From Geothrix oryzae (GTDB lineage: Bacteria; Acidobacteriota; Holophagae; Holophagales; Holophagaceae): a DNA stretch of 64,000 bases. Within the stretch, counting starts at the first letter, position 1. Each line of letters opens with the position of its first letter. The notes below the pieces were generated by a model. The model was not told the DNA's origin and did not search any database. It was given only the letters and a program-made list of their open reading frames with translations. Below, piece after piece: positions 6,881 to 11,587 of the stretch. The stretch is from positions 1,860,001-1,924,000 of the forward strand of contig NZ_AP027079.1 in NCBI RefSeq assembly GCF_030295385.1. The letters run 5' to 3'. Position numbers and translations under genes: made by a program.

Positions 6881-7258
6881 ATGGTACTGATCGTGGAAGA
6901 CAACCAGCTGTTCCGACGGTACCTCCGGGACTCGCTGAGCCGTCATTTCCCCGATTTGAGCTTCCATGAGGCCGAAAGCCTCGCCCAAGGCCGACAGACG
7001 CTCCGGGAGACCCACCCGGAAGCCGTCCTGGTGGACCTCTGTCTTCCCGACGGCACGGGGCTTGATCTGGTGGAGACCATCCACCGGGACTACCCGGAAA
7101 TCTCAGTGGCCATCTGCACCGCCCATGATCTCCCGGAATACCGGGAGGCCGCACGGAAGGCCGGCCTGGATGGCTTTTTCGTCAAGAATCACCTCGACTG
7201 GGAGGGGGTCATCCAGCTCATCGCCGCCTCCCGGCACAAGTCCATGCGGCAGGCATGA
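6881..7258 (+). CDS. Stand-alone response-regulator receiver protein
   Basis: This 125-residue protein consists of one receiver domain and no output domain. The acidic pocket E6/D7, phospho-acceptor D52 (LVDLCLPDGTG), T80 (AICTAHD) and K102 (FFVKNH) are all in place. Such CheY-like proteins act by protein-protein contact or as phosphorelay intermediates. It lies divergently from the NarL-type regulator, so it may take phosphate from the same kinase, but that is inference. The C-terminus ends shortly after helix 5 with a basic tail. The next gene, a NosL-like protein, starts 73 bases downstream and has its own good ribosome binding site. Confidence 0.88.
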   Translation: MVLIVEDNQLFRRYLRDSLSRHFPDLSFHEAESLAQGRQTLRETHPEAVLVDLCLPDGTGLDLVETIHRDYPEISVAICTAHDLPEYREAARKAGLDGFFVKNHLDWEGVIQLIAASRHKSMRQA

Positions 7259-7331: not shown

Positions 7332-7787
7332 ATGCGCGCCCTCGCTCTCGCCGCGGCCCTGGCGGCCGGCCTCTCGGCGGCCTCCGCGCCTCCCCCGGAG
7401 CCCCAGGGCAACTGCGCCGTGTGCGGCATGTTCGTGGCGAACTTCCCCGACTGGGCCTCGGCCATTTCGTTCAAGGACGGCACCACGGCCTGGTTCGACG
7501 GACCGAAGGATCTCTTCGCCTGCCTCCTGGACCTGGGCCGCTACGCCCCGCGCCGGAAAGCGGCCGACATCGTCTCGATCCGGGTGAAGGACTACTACGG
7601 TCTCGCCCCCATCGATGGCCGCAAGGCCTTCTACGCGATGGGCAGCGATGTCATGGGCCCCATGGGAAGGGAGCTCGTGCCCTTCGCTTCCGAGGCCGAT
7701 GCGCGCGACTTCCTCAAGGATCACAAGGGCCAGCGGATCCTGGGATTCCAGGAGGTCACGCCCGCCGTCCTCAAGGCCCTGGAGTAG
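7332..7787 (+). CDS. NosL-like periplasmic copper-binding protein
   Basis: This 151-residue protein has a cleavable signal peptide (about 1-19, ending ASA) and the NosL copper motif CAVCGMF (C28, C31, M33). NosL proteins bind Cu(I) and help supply copper to nitrous oxide reductase, but NosL homologues also occur without nosZ. Unlike classical NosL it lacks a lipobox. ATG 7332 is preceded by AGGAG. It is the first of five closely packed plus-strand genes with an ABC exporter-like pair; no nosZ, nosD or nosR is in the window, so a role outside N2O reduction is likely. Family assignment is firm; the job here is inferred. Confidence 0.85.
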   Translation: MRALALAAALAAGLSAASAPPPEPQGNCAVCGMFVANFPDWASAISFKDGTTAWFDGPKDLFACLLDLGRYAPRRKAADIVSIRVKDYYGLAPIDGRKAFYAMGSDVMGPMGRELVPFASEADARDFLKDHKGQRILGFQEVTPAVLKALE

Positions 7788-7797
7788 GCCCCCCGCC

Positions 7798-8127
7798 GTG
7801 CGCAAATCCACCTTCTTCCTGATCCTGACGGGCACTCAGGTCGGCCTGCTCGCAGCCGCCCTGCTCCATGCGCGGGTGCAGGAAGGACCGGCCCTCTTCC
7901 AGCGCCAACCCAGCCAGACCCTGGTGCGGGAACTGGGCCTCACGGATCTCTGCCTCTTCACCGAAGCCCGCTACACCCGCCACCCGGCCATGGCCGACCG
8001 CCACGCCGCCTTCCAGGATCACCCCCTGGGTCTGGAGCACTTCCCCTCCGGTTCCCTGGTGCCGCCGCCCGCCTTCCCCTCGAGACCTCATGCACCCGTC
8101 CCTGCGCCGCACCCGGAACATCCTTGA
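7798..8127 (+). CDS. Small membrane-anchored His-rich protein of unknown function
   Basis: This 109-residue protein begins at GTG 7798, 10 bases after the NosL stop. One N-terminal hydrophobic helix (about 5-24) is followed by a short, probably periplasmic segment. Residues 45-85 look conserved in style: LTDLCLFTEARYTRHP, then ADRHAAFQDHP and LEHFPSGS, with C52 and several histidines (H62, H69, H75, H81) that could bind metal. The tail is Pro/His-rich. Its last 38 bases overlap the start of the permease gene, which points to translational coupling. I do not recognise a named family. The position between NosL and an ABC permease suggests a metal-handling or adaptor role, which is inference. 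Confidence 0.7.
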   Translation: MRKSTFFLILTGTQVGLLAAALLHARVQEGPALFQRQPSQTLVRELGLTDLCLFTEARYTRHPAMADRHAAFQDHPLGLEHFPSGSLVPPPAFPSRPHAPVPAPHPEHP

Positions 8128-9226
8128 TTTCGCACTGTCCTCGCTGCTGCGGCGAAGGGGGCGGAACCTGTCGCTGCTCCTGGTCTACACGCTCGTGGTG
8201 GCCGTCCTCGCCTCGCTGATCTTCTTCGTCCAGGCCCTTAAGCGCGAGGCCCGACTGGTGCTCGGCCAGGCCCCGGAGATGGTGGTCCAGCGCATGGTGG
8301 CCGGGCGCCACGATCCGATCCCCACCGCCCAGGCGGAGGCCATCCGCGCCATCCGGGGGGTGAGGGAGGTCACGCCGCGGGTCTGGGGCTACTACTACGA
8401 TCCCGTCTATGGAGGGAACCTCACCGTCATGGGCCAGGAGGGCGGCGGCCTGGCGGCGGATTCCGTCCTCATCGGCCAGGGCGTGGCCCGCAGCATGCGC
8501 GTGAAGGAGGGGGACATGATCTCCCTCCGCGGCTACACCGGCCTTCCCATGCTGTTCTCAATCCAGAAGGTGCTGCCCGCCGAATCCGAATTGGTGTCGT
8601 CGGATCTCGTCATCATGGCCCTGCCGGACATCCGGACCCTCTTCAACCTGCCCGAAGGCCAGGCCACGGACCTGATGGTCCGCGCCGGAAACCCCCGCGA
8701 GCTGCCCACCATCGCCGCCAAGATCGTGGAGCGGTTCCCCGATGCCCGGCCCATCCTGAAATCCGAGATCCTCCGCACCTACGACGCCATTTTCGACTGG
8801 CGCGGCGGCCTGCTGGTGGCCGTGCTGGCCTCGGCCCTGCTCTCCTTCGTCATCTTCGCCTGGGACAAGGCCACGGGCCTCTCGGCGGAAGAACGTAAGG
8901 AGATCGGCATCCTGAAATCCATCGGCTGGGAGACCTCGGATGTGCTGCTGCTGAAGTTCTGGGAAGGCACCGTCATCTCCCTGACGGCCTTCCTCTCCGG
9001 CGTCCTGCTCGCCTACGGCCATGTCTTCTTCTTCTCCGCCTCGCTCTTCGAGCACGCCCTCAAGGGCTGGTCGGTCCTCTTCCCGCGCTACCGCCTCATC
9101 CCCACGGTGGACGCCTACCAGCTCGGGGTGCTGTTCTTCCTCACGGTCCTGCCCTACACGGCCGCCACCCTCGTGCCGTGTTGGCGGGCCGCCACGGTGG
9201 ACCCCGACGCCGCGATGAGGTCCTGA
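8090..9226 (+). CDS. ABC transporter permease, FtsX/MacB type
   Basis: This 378-residue permease has the four-helix FtsX/MacB layout: one helix near residues 24-44, a large periplasmic domain (about 45-240), then three helices near 243-263, 288-312 and 340-365. The cytoplasmic coupling region reads SAEERKEIGILKSIGWETSDV, typical of the family. Such permeases work with a cognate ATPase in mechanotransmission, lipoprotein release or export rather than classical import. The ATPase follows three bases downstream. The start at 8090 overlaps the preceding gene by 38 bases; an upstream extension would overlap it entirely. Confidence 0.9.
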   Translation: MHPSLRRTRNILDFALSSLLRRRGRNLSLLLVYTLVVAVLASLIFFVQALKREARLVLGQAPEMVVQRMVAGRHDPIPTAQAEAIRAIRGVREVTPRVWGYYYDPVYGGNLTVMGQEGGGLAADSVLIGQGVARSMRVKEGDMISLRGYTGLPMLFSIQKVLPAESELVSSDLVIMALPDIRTLFNLPEGQATDLMVRAGNPRELPTIAAKIVERFPDARPILKSEILRTYDAIFDWRGGLLVAVLASALLSFVIFAWDKATGLSAEERKEIGILKSIGWETSDVLLLKFWEGTVISLTAFLSGVLLAYGHVFFFSASLFEHALKGWSVLFPRYRLIPTVDAYQLGVLFFLTVLPYTAATLVPCWRAATVDPDAAMRS

Positions 9227-9228
9227 CC

Positions 9229-9951
9229 ATGATCGAGCTCACCCAGGTGGTGAAGACCTACCATGCCGGCCTCGCCACGCCGTTCACCGCGGTGGACGGC
9301 GTGAGCCTCCAGATTCCGTTCGGCCAGCTCACGATCCTCAAGGGCCCCAGCGGCTCCGGCAAGACGACCCTGCTGACCCTCATCGGCTGCATGGCCCGCC
9401 CCACCTCGGGTCGCATCCACCTCCATGGTCTTCCCGCGGCGGCCCTGCCCGGCCTCCCCTCTGGAGACGGCCTCGAGATCACCAGCCTGCCCGAGCGCTT
9501 CCTCACGGGCATCCGGCGCCGGACCTTCGGCTTCATCTTCCAGCAGTTCAACCTGATCCAGGGCATCTCGGCCTTGGAGAATGTGATGCTCCCAACCTGC
9601 CCCACCGGGGAGGACGCCGCTGTCGTCCGCCGCCGGGCCCTGGAGCTGTTGGGCCGCTTCGGCCTCTCGCGACAGGCCGGAGCCGCCGTGGGCCGGCTGT
9701 CCGGCGGCGAGGCCCAGCGCGTGGCCGTGGCCCGGGCCCTCATCAATGATCCCGCCGTGATCATCGCCGATGAGCCGACGGCCCACCTGGACAGCCGGCT
9801 CTCCGCGGAGTTCATGGAGCTGATGGGGACCTTCAAGGCCACCGGCAGGACCCTCCTCATCGCCAGCCACGACCCCATCGTCTACGAGTCGCCCCTCGCG
9901 GACCGGGTGGTGACCCTGCGGGACGGCCGCATCACCGCGACCACGCCATGA
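9229..9951 (+). CDS. ABC transporter ATPase, LolD/MacB type
   Basis: This 240-residue nucleotide-binding subunit has every canonical motif: Walker A GPSGSGKTT (39-47), Q-loop Q105 (FQQFNLI), signature LSGGE (157-161), Walker B IIADEPT with catalytic E182, D-loop HLD and switch H214 (ASHDP). It resembles LolD/MacB ATPases that pair with FtsX-type permeases, and the permease gene ends two bases upstream. A somewhat long insert at about 68-92 (LPAAALPGL to SLPERF) precedes the Q-loop. The final codons overlap the next gene by four bases (ATGA), consistent with one operon. Confidence 0.92.
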   Translation: MIELTQVVKTYHAGLATPFTAVDGVSLQIPFGQLTILKGPSGSGKTTLLTLIGCMARPTSGRIHLHGLPAAALPGLPSGDGLEITSLPERFLTGIRRRTFGFIFQQFNLIQGISALENVMLPTCPTGEDAAVVRRRALELLGRFGLSRQAGAAVGRLSGGEAQRVAVARALINDPAVIIADEPTAHLDSRLSAEFMELMGTFKATGRTLLIASHDPIVYESPLADRVVTLRDGRITATTP

Positions 9952-10940
9952 TTCAGCATCCGGGAGTCCTCGCCCTCCTGCTCGCCTCGGGCCTCGTCTC
10001 GCTCATGCTGGGCTTCGCGGGCTGGCATGCCGTCGAGATCATGCTCAGGTGGAACCTCCGGAGCGGCAGCGAGGTGCAGCTCGACCTGGAACGGCGCACC
10101 TACCTGGTCTCCACCCTCGTCGCCAACGCCCTCGTCATCCAGATCCTGTCCCTGTTCCTGTTCGTCTTCACGGCGGACGGCCTGCACGATCAGTTCGTGG
10201 GTGCCATGTGTGCCGCGGGTTCCCTCGCCGCCAACGGCTTCGGCTACCCCACCCTCCTGGTGAAGCTCGGCACCTGCCTGCTGGCCGGGGTGTGGCTGGT
10301 CCTCCACCACGCGGACACCCGGGGCCACGACTATCCGCTGATCCGTGCGAAGCACGCCCTGCTGCTGCTGCTGGTCCCTCTGGTGCTGCTGGAGACCTAC
10401 CTGCAGTGGCGCTATGTCGCCGGCCTGAAGGCCGATGTGATGACGAGCTGCTGCGGCAGCCTCTTCGGGCAGGGCCGCCAGAGCCTCGGCGCCAGTCTGG
10501 CCGGGCTGCCGCCCCGGTTCATGCGCCCCGCCTTCTGGTCCGTCCTGGCGGCCCTGCTGGCCGCAGGCGGCCTCGTCCTCCGGAAGCGGCAAGGCACGGT
10601 CCCGTTCGCGATCCTCAGCCTGGCCTTCCTGGCGGTGGCCGCCGCCTCTCTGATCTCCTTCATCGGCCTCTACATCTACGCCCTGCCCACGCACCACTGC
10701 CCCTTCTGCCTGCTGCACCGGGAGTACGGCTTCGTCGGCTATCCGCTGTACGGGGCCCTGCTGGGGGGGGCCATCTCGGGTCTGGGCGTCGGCGCCTTGG
10801 CGCCCTTTCAAGGACGCCCCAGCCTGGCGATCGCCCTGCCCGGGATCCAGCGGAAGCTCACCTGGGCCACGGTGGCCCTGGCGCTGCTCTTCACCCTCAT
10901 CGTGGGCGCGTGGATGGTGCTGTCGCCCTTAAGGCTCTAA
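9948..10940 (+). CDS. Polytopic membrane protein with DsbB/VKOR-like CPxC motif
   Basis: This 330-residue integral membrane protein has about seven or eight predicted helices (near 5-25, 53-76, 103-121, 136-154, 195-211, 219-246, 262-285 and 303-325). The motif HHCPFCLLH (249-257; C251 and C254) lies at a membrane boundary and resembles the CPxC motif of DsbB, the disulfide-generating quinone reductase. A vicinal pair C168-C169 (MTSCCGS) and C88/C110 could complete a thiol relay or bind copper. Similarity to DsbB is by motif only and I do not recognise the whole protein. It overlaps the ATPase gene by four bases and ends convergently, overlapping the next gene by four. Confidence 0.8.
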   Translation: MIQHPGVLALLLASGLVSLMLGFAGWHAVEIMLRWNLRSGSEVQLDLERRTYLVSTLVANALVIQILSLFLFVFTADGLHDQFVGAMCAAGSLAANGFGYPTLLVKLGTCLLAGVWLVLHHADTRGHDYPLIRAKHALLLLLVPLVLLETYLQWRYVAGLKADVMTSCCGSLFGQGRQSLGASLAGLPPRFMRPAFWSVLAALLAAGGLVLRKRQGTVPFAILSLAFLAVAAASLISFIGLYIYALPTHHCPFCLLHREYGFVGYPLYGALLGGAISGLGVGALAPFQGRPSLAIALPGIQRKLTWATVALALLFTLIVGAWMVLSPLRL

Positions 10941-11443
10941 CTCATGCCGTGGCGGCCCAGGTAGCGCCGCACGGCCGCCTGGGTTTCGGGCAGCTGGAGA
11001 CCGGCCTCCATGGAGATCCGGAGCGCCTCCGACATGGGCATGCCCTTGTCCATCACCAGCCAGGGACAGACGATGGCCGCGGCCCGGTTGCCGTTGCTGC
11101 AGTGGAGCAGCACCCGGGAGCCCTTGGGAAGGTCGCGAAGCAGGGTCCTCAGGAAGTCGAAGTCAGCATCCGGGGGCGCTTTGGCCAGTGCGTAGCGCTG
11201 GTAGTGGATCCCCAGATCGGTCATCTTCGCCGACTCGGATTCGCAATTGAGGTTCGGCTCGTCATCCCGGCGCAGGTCGATCACATGGGTGAAGTGGTGC
11301 TTCTTCAGGGCCTGGCAGGTGGTCTCGTTGGGCGTGCCCTTGAGCACAAAGACGCCGGTGCGCACCTCCACGGCGCCTGGAATCACCGAGTCCTGGGCCT
11401 GGAGCACCAGGGCCGGGAGAAGGAGGAGCGACAGTTTCAACAT
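10937..11443 (-). CDS. Secreted protein-tyrosine-phosphatase-like protein
   Basis: This 168-residue protein has a signal peptide (about 1-17, ending LQAQ) and a dual-specificity-phosphatase-like core: VIDLRRDDEPN (54-64), then the phosphate loop HCSNGNRAA (C115 to R120). The loop spacing is C-x4-R rather than the C-x5-R of typical PTPs; a shortened loop also occurs in DUF442/beta-lactamase-hydrolase-like relatives. ATG 11443 was chosen because GGAGGG lies four bases upstream and it begins at the signal peptide. Possible roles are dephosphorylation or sulfur transfer in the periplasm; neither is proven by the sequence. It lies convergent to the membrane protein of the NosL cassette. Confidence 0.75.
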   Translation of the reverse strand: MLKLSLLLLPALVLQAQDSVIPGAVEVRTGVFVLKGTPNETTCQALKKHHFTHVIDLRRDDEPNLNCESESAKMTDLGIHYQRYALAKAPPDADFDFLRTLLRDLPKGSRVLLHCSNGNRAAAIVCPWLVMDKGMPMSEALRISMEAGLQLPETQAAVRRYLGRHGMS

Positions 11444-11587
11444 GGAACCCTCCGCGACATCGCCTGGATACCAGGCAGGTTCGCGGAGACCACCGGAGGG
11501 GCCTAAGGCTTTGGAGCCCGGGTCCCAGCGGGCGGGTCTCCACACTTCCCAATGTAGGCCTTTGGGTCAGCTATTCAATGGACCTGG

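Follow-up and report, generated by a model that had tools for sequence, protein, structure and literature searches.

A conserved five-gene NosL, ABC transporter and membrane-protein cassette in Geothrix oryzae with a likely link to copper

Within a 64,000-nucleotide stretch of the Geothrix oryzae genome (contig NZ_AP027079.1, positions 1,860,001 to 1,924,000; hereafter the window), five consecutive genes encode a NosL-family protein, a small membrane protein, the permease and ATPase of an ATP-binding cassette (ABC) system, and a larger membrane protein that we call Mem (Table 1). The host genome is 3.27 Mb in a single contig, and its closest named relatives are Geothrix. The genes are closely packed, with a 10-base gap between NosL and the small protein, a 38-base overlap between the small protein and the permease, a 2-base gap between the permease and the ATPase, and a 4-base ATGA overlap between the ATPase and Mem. 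A preliminary description of the locus had given the same five genes, coordinates, gaps, and overlaps, all of which proved exact.

Table 1. Features of the cassette and its immediate surroundings, in window coordinates (aa, amino acids).
Feature	Position	Strand	Basis
Lone response-regulator receiver gene	6881-7258		
NosL-family periplasmic protein, 151 aa	7332-7787	+	Pfam NosL
NosL candidate Cu(I) ligands C28, C31, M33	7413-7430		
NosL candidate Cu(I) ligand M111	7662-7664		
NosL candidate Cu(I) ligand H131	7722-7724		
Small bitopic membrane protein, 109 aa, GTG start	7798-8127	+	no Pfam/NCBIfam family
FtsX/MacB-type (type VII) ABC permease, 378 aa	8090-9226	+	Pfam FtsX, Foldseek
ABC ATPase, LolD/FtsE/MacB group, 240 aa	9229-9951	+	Pfam ABC_tran
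Mem, eight-helix inner-membrane protein, 330 aa	9948-10940	+	AlphaFold2, no Pfam/NCBIfam family
Mem invariant M87-C88	10206-10211		
Mem invariant C168-C169	10449-10454		
Mem invariant HHCPFC 249-254	10692-10709		
Dual-specificity-phosphatase-like gene	10937-11545	-	

A coupled unit shared by several phyla

A search of genome_contigs with Mem returned 318 relatives, and our locus counts refer to the best 80 of these, which came from Holophagaceae (Acidobacteriota), Geobacter relatives and other Desulfobacterota, Nitrospirota, and Methylococcales. Mem was adjoined by the permease in 77 of the 80 loci, by the small protein in about 75, and by NosL in about 67, with several of the absences falling at contig ends. 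Because the genes adjoin in most loci from several phyla, their grouping is more than chance, and the possibility raised in the preliminary description that they rarely occur together is not borne out. The spacing recurs as well: the small protein and permease genes overlapped in 74% of loci and the ATPase and Mem genes in 77%, the median gap between permease and ATPase was 2 bases, and NosL was spaced more loosely. Pairwise divergences of the cassette proteins were also correlated, with r = 0.88 for the permease and Mem. The arrangement varies in Methylococcales, where NosL lies downstream of Mem rather than leading the block, and in two loci where the block is broken into divergent halves. 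Thus, the five genes form a conserved, translationally coupled unit across several phyla, beyond chance.

Among Geothrix relatives, the cassette is accessory, with Mem found in 10 of 25 same-genus genomes (once as a fragment). In the Holophagaceae loci that we checked, it occupies one shared position, with a histidine kinase/LuxR pair on one side and a phosphatase-hemN-hemE run on the other. One same-genus genome has an empty site at this position (L128:7898-8157), where the LuxR regulator lies ~260 bases from the phosphatase and all five cassette genes are absent together. The genome of locus L062 carries a second full cassette, from NosL through the small protein, permease, and ATPase to Mem, on a separate contig (L101:8513-12178).

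The genes on either side of the window cassette do not appear to be part of it. Apart from the window, only L014 and L030 among the Holophagaceae cassette loci that we checked have the receiver gene just upstream of NosL, which places it outside the cassette core. The convergent phosphatase-like gene, which shares its four end bases with Mem, occurs with or without the cassette and is therefore unrelated to it. A search of 72,556 plasmid records gave no match that would point to plasmid-borne spread. There was also no Rfam match to an RNA regulatory element, and a scan for sigma-70 promoters and terminators returned 0 promoters and one terminator-like match, which is about chance level.

The encoded proteins and the absence of nitrous oxide reductase

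Most descriptions of NosL present it as a nitrous oxide reductase chaperone. The window NosL scored 98.1 bits against Pfam PF05573 (cut-off 24) and carries a Sec signal with no lipobox; a lipobox-like pattern, loosely defined, was present in 4 of 66 relatives. Its candidate Cu(I) ligands are strongly conserved, with C28, C31, M33, and H131 in 100% and M111 in 99% of the 67 cassette NosLs, and in an alignment with the Pseudomonas stutzeri NosL of the NosDFYL structure 7osf, the CxxCGM motif, the second methionine, and a histidine match. Judged by its sequence, with a score above the curated cut-off and a CxM motif kept in all 67 cassette members, the protein can be assigned to the NosL family.

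No nos gene lies near the window cassette, as the preliminary description had noted, and the best match to NosZ in the genome was a 20.6-bit hit to a CuA domain. NosZ searches covered a Desulfuromonadia sample (n = 146) and the 25 Geothrix genomes, and they found NosZ above the cut-off in one of the former and none of the latter, in which the weak matches were to a CuA domain. In the same Desulfuromonadia sample, Mem was present in 68, NosL in 75, and both in 67, such that NosL accompanied 67 of 68 Mem-positive vs. 8 of 78 Mem-negative members (Fisher p ~3e-31). A similar association was seen in Methylococcales (n = 151; Mem in 16, NosL in 19), where NosL occurred in 16/16 members with Mem vs. 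3/135 without it (p ~6e-19). Because NosZ was absent or nearly so, we rejected identity with a Nos locus, and the alternative that relatives of these genes always belong to a known nos locus gave way to the finding that they usually lie outside one. The cassette NosLs also appear distinct in sequence: a model built from them scored cassette-type NosLs from other places at 200-293 bits vs. 24-48 bits for nos-locus NosLs. In a NosL tree, a 98% split puts them in one group, but one long-branch nos-locus NosL falls inside it, and they may or may not be monophyletic.

One survey found NosL mostly in species with nitrous oxide reductase (PMC6769254). In Desulfuromonadia and Methylococcales, NosL instead tracks the cassette almost one to one, and with NosZ nearly absent from the Desulfuromonadia sample, NosL is a poor marker of nitrous oxide reduction there. 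It therefore probably has a copper role broader than serving nitrous oxide reductase.

Other NosL-related genes were observed around these loci. Directly ahead of the cassette NosL, a second paralogue of the CKYCGMDR type, in many cases with a tail rich in Lys, Met, and His, was seen at L028:2153-2665, L042:6822-7340, L067:6844-7347, and ~25 more loci, with many Desulfobacterota and Nitrospirota among the hosts. Elsewhere, a NosL domain precedes a long C-terminal part (L085:12030-13442, in which Pfam recognizes the outer-membrane-type Phenol_MetA_deg, and L094:10233-11753), a fusion type present in 5/8 Methylococcales-group loci and some Desulfobacterota. Small exported cysteine-rich proteins (CGCPMMCCN, CGCGDACKCG) that look metallothionein-like and have no Pfam match stand beside NosL clusters at L094:11757-12044, L035:5585-5968, and L097:2921-3298.

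The permease and ATPase calls of the preliminary description were, like that of NosL, confirmed by Pfam. The permease matched FtsX (PF02687) at 29.7 bits (cut-off 25.5) and MacB_PCD (PF12704) at 25.2 bits, just under the cut-off of 27. With its AlphaFold2 model (pLDDT, the predicted local distance difference test score, 80), Foldseek retrieved LolE (6e-15), MacB (2e-13), and HrtB (2e-10), along with LolC, YbbP, BceB, and FtsX, matches that identify it as a type VII ABC permease. The ATPase scored 92.6 bits against ABC_tran, and its top NCBIfam matches were FtsE, LolD, and MacB, all under their cut-offs. Taken together, the FtsX domain, the MacB-like core domain of the modeled permease, and the matching ATPase place the pair in the type VII (MacB/Lol/FtsX) class. 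These transporters work by mechanotransmission, and because there is a single permease gene copy, the permease presumably acts as a homodimer.

Mem had no match in Pfam (E < 1) or NCBIfam and no PDB sequence match at E < 10. Its AlphaFold2 model (pLDDT 89.6; predicted template modeling score 0.89) has eight long helices and matched no PDB fold at E < 0.1, with a best E of 0.29. M87-C88, C168-C169, and HHCPFC, all invariant, are found in alternate loops. Overall, these Cys/His loops contain less lysine and arginine than the loops on the opposite side, and they therefore probably face the periplasm. The preliminary description had called the protein DsbB-like on the strength of a CPFC motif alone. 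The motif is present within HHCPFC, invariant, and in a loop poor in lysine and arginine, but searches of Pfam, PDB sequences, and PDB folds revealed no similarity to DsbB, VKOR, or DsbD, and we rejected identity with DsbB or VKOR. Homology to FetA was likewise rejected, with an hhalign probability of 0.2% against an FtrD/FetA-like protein in a comparison where one side was a single sequence.

The small protein also had no match in Pfam or NCBIfam. It has one N-terminal hydrophobic segment after a positively charged start, in line with the membrane anchor previously proposed for it, and its defining feature is the motif LTDLCLFTEARYTRHPxxADxHxxFQDHPxxLEHFPSGS, whose residues are near-invariant across loci. 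Going by these sequence features, it seems better described as a conserved membrane-anchored family with a fixed motif than by a His-rich tail, as it had been. The cassette thus brings to light two conserved families of unnamed proteins that carry invariant or near-invariant Cys/His sites.

Copper neighbors and a proposed function

Beyond NosL itself, the genes around the cassette point to copper. Among the 65 loci outside the Holophagaceae, 31 had a CusA, CusB, CopA-type, or multicopper oxidase (MCO) gene within 10 kb, and 18 had redoxin or DsbD genes nearby. A Pfam tally of same-strand neighbors was led by 11 CusB-type adaptors, 9 redoxins, 5 YHS, 4 DsbD_2, and 4 SCO. CusA-family genes lay within 10 kb of 22 of the 80 loci, compared to about 1-2% per locus that we estimate by chance, given that each genome carries from one to a few CusA-family genes that exceed the cut-off. 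The G. oryzae genome has one such resistance-nodulation-division (RND) gene, located elsewhere from the cassette. The neighboring CusA matched CusA best in the PDB (1012 bits vs. 500 for ZneA), and the CusA methionine triad was intact in 20 of 21 full-length copies. We consider it likely that the cassette is involved with copper.

What it does with copper is less certain. At a probability of roughly 0.5, we propose that the cassette handles Cu(I) in the periplasm, chiefly for copper homeostasis, with a type VII ABC motor powering the passage of Cu(I) between NosL and a Cys/His relay in the membrane. The cassette would encode one inner-membrane complex and its periplasmic copper carrier. A permease homodimer and the ATPase would make up a type VII ABC machine in the same class as LolCDE, MacB, and HrtBA, where ATP hydrolyzed in the cytoplasm would move periplasmic domains (mechanotransmission) with no solute import. 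Mem would offer C88, C168-C169, and HHCPFC on the periplasmic side and the small protein its conserved histidine motif, and the two could serve as a thiol/His relay, either taking Cu(I) from soluble NosL or loading it. By analogy with NosFY/NosD, which act for NosL in nitrous oxide reductase assembly, the ATP-driven motion may give the transfer its direction. Cu(I) would then be handed to exporters or oxidases such as CusCBA or an MCO in the service of envelope copper homeostasis, redoxin/DsbD partners would keep the thiols reduced, and delivery to a cuproenzyme would be a secondary possibility. We infer complex formation, the direction of transfer, and mechanotransmission for the cassette itself.

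Several observations weigh against this proposal. The neighbor loci were gathered via Mem and are phylogenetically uneven, and the co-occurrence statistics ignore phylogeny, with the NosL-Mem association seen in two distant groups. None of the 15 Holophagaceae loci, the group to which the window belongs, had a nearby copper gene besides NosL, so the copper link within this group comes from NosL alone. In addition, L034, L040, L062, L070, and L071 have no adjacent NosL; their genomes carry it elsewhere, and NosL was present in 16/16 checked genomes of cassette loci, including those without an adjacent copy. The SCO and cytochrome c genes found close to some loci are equally consistent with enzyme maturation, TonB receptors near L028 and L067 are consistent with uptake, and the small protein and Mem are putative copper binders.

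The best-surviving alternative is the maturation of a cuproenzyme, with copper loaded into a specific periplasmic or membrane enzyme (a CuA oxidase, an MCO, particulate methane monooxygenase, or another) and the ABC pair powering its delivery in the manner of NosDFY with NosZ. In favor of this, NosL has been proven to bind Cu(I) and to act in the assembly of CuZ (PMC6530538), a similar gene set occurs within the Sulfurospirillum cavolei nos cluster (PMC4794192), SCO/SenC, redoxin, and cytochrome c neighbors are recurrent, and MCO genes are within 10 kb of 14 loci. However, no cuproenzyme that we tested co-varies with the cassette. NosZ is nearly absent, and the CuA domain was weakly associated in Desulfuromonadia (odds ratio 3.1) and not associated in Geothrix (p = 0.61), which led us to reject a CuA oxidase as a tight maturation partner. 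Moreover, the loci with an MCO gene nearby are a minority, and many hosts come from groups that are mainly anaerobic, sulfate reducers among them. We therefore regard this alternative as unlikely. The copper or thiol-redox maturation system envisaged in the preliminary description fits the copper and thiol-redox neighbors, but maturation of a single metalloprotein is not favored over homeostasis, because the neighbors are mostly CusA, CusB, and MCO and the CuA oxidase barely co-varies.

Less probable still is a periplasmic thiol-redox relay, in which Mem would be a DsbB/VKOR- or DsbD-like oxidoreductase, the ABC pair would move a thiol or reductant, and NosL would be a client rather than the purpose. 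The three invariant cysteine clusters in predicted periplasmic loops, the redoxin/DsbD neighbors, and the analogy with FetA-F, where FetE and FetF are thioredoxins (PMC10783030), could all be accommodated by such a relay, but Mem shares neither sequence nor fold similarity with these oxidoreductases, redoxins are near a minority of loci, and the near-total coupling to NosL points to copper. Copper uptake, with NosL taking copper that enters via an outer-membrane receptor and the ABC complex passing it inwards, is very improbable despite the two TonB-dependent receptors and the Methylococcales NosL domains fused to Phenol_MetA_deg, as no importer is known among type VII ABC proteins of this fold and CusA/CusB/CopA efflux genes are far commoner neighbors.

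Returning to Cu(I) handling, a wider reading is possible and put forward only tentatively: the cassette could represent a widespread new class of ATP-driven copper-transfer machine. Such a machine would combine a type VII ABC motor with members of two new protein families, a small subunit bearing a His motif and an eight-helix relay with Cys/His sites and no fold match in the PDB, and would move Cu(I) between NosL and the copper proteins of the envelope with no dependence on nitrous oxide reduction. In that case, the wider role of NosL would be general copper traffic, and a copper-linked motor of the LolCDE/MacB class would be a new way for bacteria to spend ATP on periplasmic metal traffic.

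Comparison with known systems

The permease fold and the ATPase subgroup liken the cassette to LolCDE, MacB, and HrtBA. Unlike LolCDE and MacAB-TolC, its five genes include no MacA-type adaptor, second Lol permease, or LolA/LolB, and its NCBIfam scores are far below the equivalog cut-offs.

The FetABCDEF system of Campylobacter and Escherichia coli (fetMP-fetABCDEF) combines an eight-helix Cys-motif protein, an FtsX-like ABC, thioredoxins, and a periplasmic metal-binding protein (PMC10783030). The cassette resembles it in these parts, and a YHS domain occurs both in FetA and among the cassette neighbors. By contrast, the cassette has one permease rather than two, NosL rather than P19, and copper rather than iron genes, and Mem lacks PF10080 (FtrD-like), which our search did not find anywhere in the G. 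oryzae genome. The FetM/FetP iron permease and P19 were not among the listed neighbor families, and no genome-wide search was aimed at them. In the Nitrospirota loci L098, L099, and L100, the genes next to a cassette-type NosL encode an FtrD-like (PF10080) protein, a further FtsX/ABC pair, and a pair resembling LolC/E and LolD, which links NosL to a Fet-type architecture.

In its logic, the cassette resembles NosDFYL, where a NosL Cu(I) chaperone is likewise paired with an ABC ATPase and permease acting in the periplasm. NosY is an ABC-2-type permease, whereas the cassette has an FtsX/MacB-type permease and a LolD/FtsE-type ATPase. The cassette also lacks NosZ and NosD and has the extra small protein and the eight-helix Cys protein, and its NosL is soluble and without a lipobox while the NosL of Nos systems is typically a lipoprotein (PMC6530538).

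In the open-licence literature, outside which subscription papers largely fall, we found no description of the five-gene system. The closest published case dates from 2016, when a five-gene insertion (a hypothetical gene, an ABC permease, an ATPase, and two hypothetical genes) between nosL and nosY was reported and left unexplained in the nos cluster of Sulfurospirillum cavolei, at OA34_10355-10365 (PMC4794192). This insertion differs in lying inside a nos cluster with NosZ present, but its order of nosL, hypothetical, ABC permease, ABC ATPase, and hypothetical, compared by described gene order only, is like that of the cassette.

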